From assembly GCA_018242205.1 (NCBI GenBank), contig JAFECJ010000003.1, positions 124,001 to 188,000 of the forward strand: 64,000 bases of DNA, read 5' to 3'. This DNA comes from Pseudomonadota bacterium (lineage in GTDB: Bacteria > Pseudomonadota > Alphaproteobacteria > Rhizobiales > Xanthobacteraceae). Below the pieces are notes generated by a model that had not been told where the DNA came from, ran no database searches, and worked only from the letters and a program-made list of their open reading frames with translations. Positions 56,665-62,367 of this stretch are shown here, piece by piece. Made by a program: the position numbers and the translations under genes. The first letter of the stretch is position 1. Each line of letters begins with the position of its first letter.

Positions 56665-56988
56665 TCAGCGTCCCTGATAGGACGGCGTACGCACGATCAG
56701 GCCGTCGAGCGCTTCGGTCACCTTGATCTGGCACGACAGCCGCGAATTGGCGCGCACGTCGAAAGCGGCGTCGAGCTCGGCATCTTCGTCGGGCGAGGGC
56801 TGGCCGACGCGCTCCATCCAGGCGTCATCGACATAAACGTGGCAGGTGGCGCAGGTGCAGCCGCCGCCGCATTCGGCGACGATGCTGGCGATGTCGTTGC
56901 GTACGGCTGTCTCCATGACCGAAGCGCCGAGTTCGGCCTCGACGGTGTGGACGGTGCCGTCATGTTCGATGAAAGTGATCTTGGGCAT
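56665..56988 (-). CDS. [2Fe-2S] ferredoxin (adrenodoxin/putidaredoxin type)
   Basis: A 107-residue ferredoxin. Cys40, Cys46, Cys49 and Cys86 (AECGGGCTCATCHVY and RLSCQIKV) fit the C-x5-C-x2-C...C cluster pattern. Cys44 is an additional cysteine inside the first loop. Such proteins shuttle electrons to P450s and other oxygenases. The gene follows the ferredoxin-reductase gene by 43 bp and belongs to the boxR transcription unit, so BoxB is a likely acceptor (inference). Confidence 0.9.
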   Translation of the reverse strand: MPKITFIEHDGTVHTVEAELGASVMETAVRNDIASIVAECGGGCTCATCHVYVDDAWMERVGQPSPDEDAELDAAFDVRANSRLSCQIKVTEALDGLIVRTPSYQGR

Positions 56989-57031
56989 AACGAAGTGGCT
57001 CTCGTTCTTGGTTGTGGTGGGGCGGGCGACG

Positions 57032-58060
57032 TTACGCCACGCCGAGTTTCTTCTGCAGGCTGGTCGACGATGTCGTGTATTGGAAAACCAGCCGCTTTTC
57101 CGGATAGACGTAATGGTGCACGCGCTGGGCGCACAGCGCGCCTTCGTGAAAACCCGAAAGGATCAACTTCAGTTTGCCCGGATAGGTGTTGATGTCGCCG
57201 ATGGCGAAGATGCCCTGCCGATTGGTTTCGAAAGTGGAGACGTCGACCTTGATGAGTTCGCCGTCCATGTCGAGCTTCCAGTCCGAGATTGGGCCGAGCT
57301 TCATGGTCAGGCCGAAGAACGGCAGCATGGCGTCGCAGGCGACGCGCTCGACGTTGCCGTCCTTGTCCTTGATCGACGCGGTCGAGAGCTGGCCGTCGGC
57401 GCCTTCCAGTTCGGTGACCTGGCCGATCTTCAAGTCCATCGCGCCTGAAGCGACCAGCGCCCGCATCTTGTTGACGCTGTCGGGCGCGCCGCGGAAATCG
57501 TCGCGGCGGTGCACGAGGGTGAGGCGCTTGGCGATCGGCTGCAGATTGAGCGTCCAGTCGAGCGCGGAATCGCCACCGCCAACGATGACGAGGTTCTTGT
57601 CGCGGAAGTTCTCCATCTTGCGCACGGCGTAGTGCACCGACTTGTCCTCGTAAGGCTCGATGCCGGCGATCGGCGGCCGCTTCGGCTGGAACGAGCCGCC
57701 GCCGGCGGCGATGATGACCGCCTTGCATTCAAAAGTTTTGCCGCCCGTCGTGGTGACGCGATAGAGCGGGTCGCCGATGTTATCGATCCCCGTCACCATC
57801 TCGCCGAGATGGAAGGTCGGGTTGAATGGCTTGATCTGCTGCATCAGCGATTCCGACAGGCCCTGGCCGGTGATCTCCGGAATGCCGGGAATGTCGTAGA
57901 TCGGCTTTTCCGGATAGAGTTCGGCGCACTGGCCGCCGACCTTGTCGAGGATGTCGACGAGGTGGGCCTTGATGTCGAGAAGGCCGAGTTCGAACACGGC
58001 GAACAGGCCGCAGGGGCCGGCGCCGACGATGAGAACGTCGGTCTTGATCGTTTCGCTCAT
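57032..58060 (-). CDS. ferredoxin--NADP+ reductase, thioredoxin-reductase-like type
   Basis: A 342-residue NAD(P)H/FAD oxidoreductase. [20 protein letters not shown] is the FAD motif, [20 protein letters not shown] is diagnostic for the bacterial TrxR-like FNR group, and [12 protein letters not shown] is the NADP motif. No redox-active CxxC of true thioredoxin reductases is seen. It transfers electrons from NADPH to ferredoxin. The gene begins 5 bp after boxR and precedes the ferredoxin gene. Confidence 0.92.
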
Positions 58061-58065
58061 CGATT

Positions 58066-59007
58066 CTATCCGGCCTTGGCCGGCTCCTTGCTTGGCGTTC
58101 TGCTTGGCTTGGCCGGCGCGATCATGCGCATGAGCTCGCTGAGGTTTTGTTCGGGCGAGCGGCCCGTGGTGGTGAGCGTCGCGTCGGCCCTGGCATAGAG
58201 CGGTTCGCGGCTGTTGAGAATCGAGATCAGATCGTCCATGGCGCGCGACGAGTTGGCCATCGGCCGCATGTCGCCCTGCGCCATCACGCGCTTCATGTGT
58301 TCGTGCGGCTCCGCCCGGATCCAGATCGTGAAGCAGGACGACAGCAACACCTCCAGCGTGCCCGGCTCGGTGACGATCGAGCCGCCGGTGGCGAGCACGA
58401 AACGATCATGGCGGTTGAGTACGTCTTCGAGGGCTTCGCGTTCGGCGCGGCGGAAGGTCTCCTGGCCGAACATGTCGAAGATCTCGCTGAGCGAAGCGCC
58501 GGAGCGGCGTTCGACTTCGCGGTCGAGTTCGATGAAGGGCACGCCCAGATGTTCGGCAAGCAGGGCGCCCAAAGTCGACTTACCGCCGCCGCGCAGGCCG
58601 ATCAGGGCGATGCGGTTGCGCTGCTCGGGCTGATCGCCGCGCACCGACCGGAAGCGCTCGGTGAGGATGCGCCGTGCTTCGACCAGGTCCTGTGACGGCA
58701 ACCGTTCGAGAAACTGTGTCAGCAACACGAGATCGAGTGGCGGGTCGGCGCCGTCATGGACGAGTTGGGTGACCGGCATGCCCATCGCGCGGGCGATACG
58801 GCGCAACAGCACGATGGAGCAATTGCCGAGGCCGGCTTCGAGCTGCGCGATATAACGCTCCGATACCTTGGCCTGGCGCGCCAGAACCTTACGCGACATG
58901 GCGCGCTGGCTGCGCAGCATGCGCACACGCTCGCCCAGCCGACGCAGATAAAGGTCGGATTCGCGGGGCGGTTTCCTCGGTGCGGCTTTTGTCTGTGCCG
59001 AATTCAT
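58066..59007 (-). CDS. boxR: BoxR: HTH regulator fused to a shikimate-kinase-like domain
   Basis: A 313-residue regulator. An XRE-type HTH spans about 23-85 ([19 protein letters not shown]), and a shikimate-kinase-like domain follows with P-loop GLRGGGKST (137-145) and [13 protein letters not shown] core ([11 protein letters not shown]). This domain pair is the hallmark of BzdR/BoxR, repressors that sense benzoyl-CoA. It is divergent from boxC and followed by FNR and ferredoxin genes. Two TGCA-type sites lie in the divergent promoter region. Confidence 0.93.
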
Positions 59008-60825: not shown

Positions 60826-60837
60826 CTTTTACTCCGC

Positions 60838-60895
60838 TCATTCCCGCGCAAGCGGGAATCCAGAAAGCCTGGGTCCCCGCTTTCGCGGGGACGAA
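60838..60895. repeat. double-hairpin intergenic repeat, second copy
   Basis: ATTCCCGC-GCAA-GCGGGAAT (60840-60859), CCAG...CTGG, then GTCCCCGC-TTTC-GCGGGGAC (60873-60892). The second stem is identical to one in the ilvI-ilvH repeat. It lies between boxC and boxB. Confidence 0.75.
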
Positions 60896-60921
60896 CGGTG
60901 GAGCCGGAAAGGACCGAGCCC

Positions 60922-62367
60922 ATGGATATCGTCAATGTCGATTACGACGGCCTGATCCCGAACAATGTCGGCCTCAACTCCGACACGCGCGTCAAGCGCG
61001 CGCTGGAGAAGTGGCATCCCGGCTACATCAACTGGTGGAATGACATGGGACCGGAAGGTTTCCAGGAGTCGCTGGTCTATCTTCGCACGGCCGTCAGCGT
61101 CGATCCCAAGGGCTGGGCCAAGTTCGACTATGTGAAGATGCCGGAATATCGCTGGGGCATCCTGTTGGCGCCGCAGGTCGAGGACCGCAAGATTCCGTTC
61201 GGCGCGCATAAGGGCGAGAAGGCATGGCAGGAAGTGCCGGGCGAGTACCGCGCTCTGCTGCGCCGCCTCATCGTCATCCAGGGCGACACCGAGCCGGCTT
61301 CGGTCGAGCAGCAACGCCACCTCGGCAAGACCGCGCCGTCGCTCTACGACATGCGCAACCTGTTCCAGGTGAATGTCGAAGAGGGGCGCCACCTCTGGGC
61401 CATGGTCTATCTGCTGCACAAATATTTCGGCAGCGAGGGACGCGACGAGGCCGACGCGCTGCTCGAGCGCCGTTCGGGCGACGCCGACACGCCGCGCATG
61501 CTGGGCGCCTTCAACGAGAAGACGCCGGACTGGCTGTCTTTCTTCATGTTCACGTACTTCACCGACCGCGACGGCAAGATGCAGTTGGAAGCCCAGGCGC
61601 AGTCCGGCTTCGATCCGCTGTCGCGCACCTGCCGTTTCATGCTGACGGAAGAAGCCCATCACATGTTCGTCGGCGAAACCGGCGTGACCCGCATCGTCGA
61701 ACGCACCTGCCAGGCGATGAAGCAGGCGGGCATCGAGGAGCCCAACGACATTGCGGCCGTGCGCAAGCTCGGCGTCATCGACCTGCCGACCGTGCAGAAG
61801 AAGCTCAATATGCACTGTTCGTTGTCGCTCGACCTGTTCGGCAACGAGATTTCGACCAATGCGGCCAATGCCTTCCATGCGGGTATCAAGGGTCGCTTCC
61901 GCGAGGAACGTCTCACCGGCGACGACCACAAGCTGGAAAACGATACCTACAAGGTCGCGCGGCTCAAGGACGGCAAGATCGTCGACGAAGACGCCCCGGC
62001 CTTGTCGGCGCTCAACATGCGCCTGCGCGACGATTATCTGAAGGATTGCGGGCTCGGCGTGTCGCGCTGGAACAAGGCGATCGAGGAATATGACGTCGAC
62101 TTCGAACTTACGCTGCCGCACCAGGCGTTCCATCGCCAGATCGGCGAGTTCTCCAAGATCAAGGCCGACCCGCAGGGCAACATCCTCGGCGAAGCGGTCT
62201 GGGAGAAGCGGAAGTCGGAATTTCTGCCGAACGACGACGACCGCGTCTATATCGAAGAGCTGATGCAGCCGGAGACCGAAGTCGGCAAGTTCGCCTCATG
62301 GATCGCGCCGCCCAAGGTCGGCATCGACAACAAGCCGGGTGAGTTCGAGTACGTGAAGCTGGCGTAG
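60922..62367 (+). CDS. boxB: benzoyl-CoA 2,3-epoxidase subunit BoxB
   Basis: A 481-residue diiron oxygenase component that epoxidises benzoyl-CoA. Metal-ligand motifs VEEGRHLWAMVYLL and LTEEAHHMFVGETGV (ExxH type) are present, as are KWHPGYINWWNDMGPEGFQ and RKIPFGAHKGE-like family motifs. The ATG at 60922 (MDIVNVDYDGLIPNN) has CCGGAAAGGA upstream; a GTG at 60898 lies in the repeat border. The reductase partner BoxA is not encoded nearby. Confidence 0.95.
   Translation: MDIVNVDYDGLIPNNVGLNSDTRVKRALEKWHPGYINWWNDMGPEGFQESLVYLRTAVSVDPKGWAKFDYVKMPEYRWGILLAPQVEDRKIPFGAHKGEKAWQEVPGEYRALLRRLIVIQGDTEPASVEQQRHLGKTAPSLYDMRNLFQVNVEEGRHLWAMVYLLHKYFGSEGRDEADALLERRSGDADTPRMLGAFNEKTPDWLSFFMFTYFTDRDGKMQLEAQAQSGFDPLSRTCRFMLTEEAHHMFVGETGVTRIVERTCQAMKQAGIEEPNDIAAVRKLGVIDLPTVQKKLNMHCSLSLDLFGNEISTNAANAFHAGIKGRFREERLTGDDHKLENDTYKVARLKDGKIVDEDAPALSALNMRLRDDYLKDCGLGVSRWNKAIEEYDVDFELTLPHQAFHRQIGEFSKIKADPQGNILGEAVWEKRKSEFLPNDDDRVYIEELMQPETEVGKFASWIAPPKVGIDNKPGEFEYVKLA

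Follow-up and report, generated by a model that had tools for sequence, protein, structure and literature searches.

A box gene cluster without boxA, with ferredoxin-NADP reductase and [2Fe-2S] ferredoxin genes as a candidate electron supply for the benzoyl-CoA epoxidase BoxB

A box gene cluster encoding the benzoyl-coenzyme A (benzoyl-CoA) 2,3-epoxidase BoxB lies in a 64,000-nt stretch of contig JAFECJ010000003.1 from an alphaproteobacterium of the Xanthobacteraceae; this stretch is referred to as the window, and coordinates are positions in it. In this cluster, boxC and boxB are divergent from a boxR-fnr-fdx unit across a 144-bp gap, where the order on the minus strand is boxR as the first gene of the unit, 5 bp, fnr, 43 bp and fdx, and all five genes are intact. 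An earlier reading made from the letters alone (the sequence-only reading) had described an fnr gene 5 bp after boxR followed by an adrenodoxin-type [2Fe-2S] ferredoxin gene, and this arrangement has been confirmed. The genes of the cluster and the sites in the gap, with family-model scores, are as follows.

56665-56988, minus strand: fdx, box-type adrenodoxin-like [2Fe-2S] ferredoxin, 107 amino acids (aa); Fer2, 46.4 bits
57032-58060, minus strand: fnr, predicted thioredoxin-reductase-type (TrxR-type) ferredoxin-NADP reductase (FNR), 342 aa; solved chain 5ygq, 598.6 bits
58066-59007, minus strand: boxR, regulator with a helix-turn-helix and a shikimate-kinase-like part (HTH_31, SKI); NF006015, 393.2 bits, cut-off 204
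59022-59037, minus strand: degenerate palindrome that resembles the predicted BoxR site below and lies 83 bp from it; 3 mismatches to a widened BoxR pattern
59105-59120, minus strand: predicted BoxR site ATGCACTATTATGCAT (TGCA-N6-TGCA), 2 mismatches to the published consensus
59152-60825, plus strand: boxC; TIGR03222, 913.7 bits, cut-off 712.3
60898-62367, plus strand: boxB, benzoyl-CoA 2,3-epoxidase; TIGR03225, 871.5 bits, cut-off 499.1

As the sequence-only reading had stated, no boxA accompanies these genes, and no match to the BoxA family model (TIGR03224, cut-off 459 bits) over the cut-off was found in the window. The FNR and the ferredoxin do not have BoxA architecture either, the former being of the Pyr_redox_2 type and the latter of the Fer2 type. 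That reading had also named a search for boxA elsewhere in the genome as a check; in the 4.6-Mb assembly of the window genome (99.4% complete) no match passed 459 bits, and the four weak ones (78.7, 74, 23.8 and 21.2 bits) are a CysJ-like protein, which is the best, a sulfite reductase alpha subunit, a 253-aa MmoC/PaaE-like reductase and the 4Fe-4S ferredoxin FdxA. All four are proteins of other kinds, and the idea that this genome has a hidden or diverged boxA was set aside. In comparisons between genomes, made at E<=1e-60, boxA was likewise found in none of the 38 boxB-bearing genomes sampled from the window's genus (code g1); across the order, boxB was found in 63 of 397 sampled genomes and boxA in 42 of these 63.

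The BoxA cut-off was also applied to other genomes of the family that bear boxB, where 21 of 40 distinct genomes pass it, one has a partial match and 18 have none; these 40 were hand-chosen from the boxB-bearing list, and G769 and G770, repeats of G424 and G438, were not counted. In a further set of 28 genomes searched whole, boxA over the cut-off was found in 17, in some of them far from boxB, as in Bradyrhizobium BTAi1 (L110), and the 11 without boxA include all four that have fdx-fnr-boxR as well as L150, which has a partial match of 142 bits. Because boxA sometimes lies far from boxB, its absence is claimed only for genomes that were searched whole, and the idea that every BoxB locus without a linked boxA marks a boxA-less genome was dropped, several such genomes (BTAi1 among them) having boxA elsewhere.

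The linkage of fnr and fdx to the box genes is conserved within the genus: in 29 of the 38 boxB-bearing genomes the two genes share a contig with boxB and lie no more than 9 kb from it; in G689 they adjoin boxR/boxC on a contig other than that of boxB, which brings the linked total to 30 of 38. Two further genomes, G498 and G653, have a box-type fdx alone beside boxR/boxC, with fnr still at its ancestral site, two are unreadable (G681, at a contig end, and G695, 74% complete, where no FNR was found), and four are unlinked (G555, G566, G634 and G697). Among 30 fetched fnr loci, boxR stands beside fnr in 28 (one of which, L176, comes from G673, where boxB was not found), while L181 has boxC without boxR and L186 is a contig end. 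In a BoxB tree of 124 rows, the clade of the window's BoxB has 20 rows including the window, 16 with fnr and fdx (one of them, L091, with no boxR found), one with fdx alone and three on short contigs; the row next to this clade, L095, carries boxA without fnr or fdx. Around this clade, boxA and the fnr/fdx genes are mutually exclusive. Several of the closest named BoxB records carry the name Pseudolabrys.

These arrangements suggest how BoxB is supplied: it is likely that FNR and the box-type ferredoxin carry electrons from NADPH to BoxB, as a non-homologous replacement of BoxA. NADPH would reduce the FAD of FNR, which would hand single electrons to the ferredoxin; the ferredoxin would dock on BoxB twice per turnover and reduce its diferric centre, BoxB would epoxidise benzoyl-CoA with O2, and BoxC would then open the ring. 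We infer the electron transfer, the partner specificity, the co-transcription and the repression by BoxR that this scheme contains, and favour it as the most economical route, one that gives every conserved part a role and accounts for a dispensable boxA. The BoxB of the window keeps all six diiron ligands (alignment to 3per, read by hand), which in Azoarcus (Aromatoleum) evansii BoxB are given as Glu120, Glu150, His153, Asp211, Glu240 and His243 (PMC5489048). The true start of boxB is probably the ATG at 60922, residue 9 of the called frame, since most of the listed relatives have 480-482 aa, as against 489 aa called here.

The ferredoxin linked to boxR appears adapted to a partner of its own. 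Its cysteines, C40-x5-C46-x2-C49-x36-C86, have adrenodoxin-type spacing, and against the model of the iron-sulfur cluster (ISC) ferredoxin, TIGR02007, it reaches 58 bits, under the cut-off of 132.1. Alignment of 68 ferredoxins sets 39 of the box type (34 picked by linkage and 5 by tail) apart from 29 others: Tyr104 is present in 34/34 of those picked by linkage and in 0/28 of the others that reach that column (the 29th is cut short), Met67 is present in 29/29 of the others and in 0/39 of the box type, and the tail P[AS]YQGR is found in 37/39 of the box type (two are cut by the alignment), while most others end in ERQ or similar. On this alignment, the box-type ferredoxin is a distinct, specialised subfamily. 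In putidaredoxin, the tail and the cluster loop are places of partner docking, and by analogy the loop and tail could have this role here. A further ferredoxin match was found in 29 of the 30 linked genomes, G629 having only one. Moreover, in G498 and G653 boxR is accompanied by a box-type fdx but no fnr, which points to the ferredoxin as the partner of BoxB. In G410, a genome of another genus without boxA, a box-type fdx on a long branch lies in tandem with the housekeeping fdx before fnr.

Two other partners for this ferredoxin have to be weighed. Adrenodoxin-type ferredoxins commonly serve cytochromes P450, the solved relatives of the window ferredoxin include putidaredoxins, and ferredoxins of the putidaredoxin type share its sequence family and length, so the fnr/fdx pair might serve a benzoate-induced P450 or another oxygenase encoded elsewhere. 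This would leave BoxB with no boxA found to feed it, and it is boxR and boxCB that are conserved as neighbours of fdx; we consider a P450 role highly unlikely. Set beside the putidaredoxin types, the window ferredoxin has a YQGR C-terminal tail and a diiron epoxidase as its predicted partner. The ferredoxin might instead mainly feed 4-hydroxybenzoyl-CoA reductase, as a source of benzoyl-CoA for BoxB, because in G566 and G634 sister box-type ferredoxin genes lie beside genes for its alpha subunit (1165 bits in G634, cut-off 994.6) and for proteins of the benzoate-CoA ligase family, and a close alpha subunit (>=87%) is encoded in 6 of the 30 linked genomes. It is missing from the other 24, of which G610 and G661 have a relative at 62-64%, and in the window genome the alpha subunit has no match at E<=1e-200; for that genome this role of the ferredoxin was set aside, and as a general explanation it is very improbable.

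In some relatives (L094 10040-15292, L224 and L227), genes for enzymes of the 4-hydroxybenzoyl-CoA reductase and CoA-ligase types adjoin box genes or a box-type ferredoxin gene, which suggests that 4-hydroxybenzoate may feed into the box pathway there.

The product of fnr is, by its sequence, a TrxR-type FNR, with HRRDDFR at 184 and Tyr328 kept and no CxxC pair. The best-scoring solved chains are 5ygq for this protein and 3hui for the ferredoxin (144 bits), which we take to be the Rhodopseudomonas palustris FNR RPA3954 and [2Fe-2S] ferredoxin RPA3956. Relatives of the R. palustris pair share one locus away from box genes in most sampled genomes, whereas here fnr lies by boxR and the ferredoxin belongs to another subfamily. 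The role of the C-terminal Tyr328 in TrxR-type FNR has been treated in PMC9137726.

The ancestral locus usually has the order apolipoprotein-like gene, Hpt gene, fdx, often a 4HBT gene, and fnr; fnr stands beside the housekeeping fdx in 29 of 31 non-linked loci, although most of these were fetched via fnr, so that this is not a free count. When the locus was read in 12 linked genomes, two contigs ended too soon, and in all ten others the housekeeping fdx is kept and no fnr is present, each genome's one FNR match being that by boxR. The window genome likewise has a single FNR match of TrxR type, the one by boxR. The linked FNRs form one clade (support 95), including L216, a contig end. We lean slightly towards a history in which the genus evolved its own BoxB ferredoxin, whose gene was put beside boxR first, and a copy of fnr behind boxR then took the place of the ancestral one. 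Trees that keep the FNRs of the genus together, as vertical descent of the linked FNR would require, are weakly rejected (p-AU 0.032 and 0.021, for groups named after the tree was seen). This is a hint that the linked fnr was acquired from another lineage, and a horizontal origin is possible.

BoxR sites have been described as TGCA repeats, mainly 6 nt apart, with the consensus ATGCACTATAGTGCAT (Suvorova and Gelfand, PMC6449761). With a widened pattern, which was loosened with the site in view, and up to 3 mismatches, only the two places listed above were found in 64 kb, giving 4 strand matches where 0.33 would be expected. For TGCA-N6-TGCA by itself, the window has one occurrence against 1.06 expected, which is chance level, so it is position and conservation that carry weight. 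The motif is present in 31 of 35 distinct divergent boxR/boxC gaps, with a mean of 0.13 in shuffles; these gaps include that of the window and two from fdx-only loci, loci without either gene were dropped, and a few gaps are perhaps from the same genome twice. The gaps that do not have it are L174, L185/L090, L187/L088 and L221. A promoter and terminator scan gave nothing above chance. The effector of BoxR is benzoyl-CoA; BoxR on the TGCA-N6-TGCA site would keep the boxR-fnr-fdx unit as well as boxCB repressed as long as benzoyl-CoA is absent. The sequence-only reading had proposed a replaced electron supply under BoxR control, and the absence of boxA, the linkage in 30 of 38 genomes, the ferredoxin subfamily and the BoxR-type site support that proposal at the level of sequence.

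Several observations weigh against FNR and ferredoxin as the donors of BoxB. In a second genus, g2, which is taken for Bradyrhizobium, 13 of 14 genomes have no boxA, and in the g2 loci boxB is linked neither to boxA nor to fnr or fdx; the four unlinked g1 genomes named above are also boxA-less, so the loss of boxA needs no such linkage. BoxB has no clear docking signature, and a search for positions that mark the ferredoxin-fed clade was unconvincing because most of the marks also occur in the boxA-bearing L095. The TrxR-type FNR of R. palustris has been reported to have low reactivity to the [2Fe-2S] ferredoxin RPA3956 (PMC9137726), beside which it can be set that the box-type ferredoxin differs at loop and tail from other ferredoxins. 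Finally, the contig with boxB also carries, about 23 kb further on, the gene for the MmoC/PaaE-like reductase, a protein that could be the donor.

It could thus be argued that fnr and fdx stand by boxR through chance or co-regulation only, and that BoxB is fed by an unlinked reductase such as this one, a 253-aa FAD_binding_6/NAD_binding_1 protein (C69:209085; L003 1249-2010) whose best model is MmoC (110 bits, cut-off 500) and which also resembles the BenC and PaaE models. The fdx-fnr pair occurs across the order away from box genes, and the boxA-less g2 genomes have neither boxA, fnr nor fdx linked to boxB. Against this stand the linkage in 30 of 38 genus genomes with FNR identity down to ~78%, the separate subfamily of the box-linked ferredoxin, and its recruitment without fnr in G498 and G653, and we regard an unlinked reductase as an unlikely donor.

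The g2 loci have features of their own. A BoxB clade without linked boxA holds the g2 loci L038-L050 together with L102, L115 and L125, and in the genomes of the last three no boxA was found; L108 and L110 are of the same clade and have boxA elsewhere in the genome. G387 (L051) encodes two BoxB proteins, one of the boxA type, whose gene adjoins boxA, and another that falls in the clade lacking linked boxA; these two may be BoxB types with different donors. Six g2 genomes (G035, G171, G194, G299, G352 and G376) encode a second adrenodoxin-type ferredoxin, 51-58% identical to that of the window, on the contig that bears boxB and ~17-37 kb away from it. Some g2 loci (L038 16024-16419 and relatives) have a bacterial globin gene (Bac_globin, 118.7 bits) next to boxR.

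The following genes lie directly beyond boxB in the window.

62426-62890, minus strand: 4HBT-type thioesterase gene, near boxB in several relatives; 4HBT_2, 50 bits
63646 onward: cysJ-cysI-cysG-like run directly beyond the box cluster (L005 147-5505)

The first of these has a counterpart at the ancestral fdx-fnr locus (L219 6537-7019), so that 4HBT thioesterase genes are found at both places. The second bears on another candidate for the BoxB reductase, a sulfite-reductase-type flavoprotein with a BoxA-like NADPH/FAD half, for example one downstream of boxB: the two top BoxA-model matches (78.7 and 74 bits) are flavoproteins of this type, the gene of one starts 1.3 kb past boxB, and similar matches lie downstream of boxB in several relatives. 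The nearer protein, however, is CysJ-like (best model TIGR01931, 577 bits, under the cut-off of 668), has a flavodoxin domain and no 4Fe-4S domain, and is encoded in the cysJ-cysI-cysG run, while the second scores 889 bits with the model of sulfite reductase alpha, above the cut-off of 432, and its gene lies beside a molybdopterin oxidoreductase gene. The CysJ-like protein was set aside as a donor, this best BoxA-model match being a false one, and a flavoprotein of this kind as the BoxB reductase is scarcely credible.

On the other side of the cluster, at 52401-55266, are genes for a pipecolate-type oxidase (458 bits, below the cut-off of 600) and an L-piperidine-6-carboxylate dehydrogenase (799.6 bits, cut-off 730), which point to a lysine/pipecolate route. 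With relatives' proteins of confirmed identity as queries, no close match to benzoate-CoA ligase or BoxD was found in the window and 58 kb of the same contig.

The FNR/ferredoxin route proposed for BoxB can be compared with two characterized systems. The BoxAB system of A. evansii is alike in a BoxB with six iron ligands, in BoxC and BoxR, and in NADPH as the likely electron source. Its BoxA, however, unites two [4Fe-4S] clusters with a plant-type FNR half in a single protein (PMC4498308, PMC3200346), as opposed to the two separate, unrelated proteins and the [2Fe-2S] cluster found here. Fer4 and NAD_binding_1 domains were found in the BoxA proteins of two relatives. In the phenylacetyl-CoA epoxidase PaaABCE, the single fused flavoprotein PaaE feeds a related diiron epoxidase via a [2Fe-2S] cluster; the window would share this [2Fe-2S] route, with a TrxR-type FNR and a free ferredoxin in place of the fused protein. 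A literature search, with limited coverage of subscription journals, found no title or abstract in which a ferredoxin/FNR pair serves BoxB, and the boxA-less cluster with this pair would be a new version of a known pathway.

BoxA is generally counted among the components of the box pathway, and the lack of boxA has been taken as an impediment to that pathway (PMC10803450). In the genus studied here, boxA is consistently absent from the sampled genomes and a specific candidate for its replacement accompanies this absence, so that annotation which requires boxA would score such genomes as unable to use benzoate by this route. If the proposed route and the history favoured above are correct, BoxB would be a diiron epoxidase with interchangeable, non-homologous electron donors, most of the genus would run the pathway without BoxA, and the cell's only TrxR-type FNR gene would be wired to benzoyl-CoA sensing. 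The two types of cluster would then offer a natural experiment in how a diiron epoxidase takes a new redox partner, with a fused flavoprotein carrying two [4Fe-4S] clusters in one case and a free [2Fe-2S] ferredoxin in the other.

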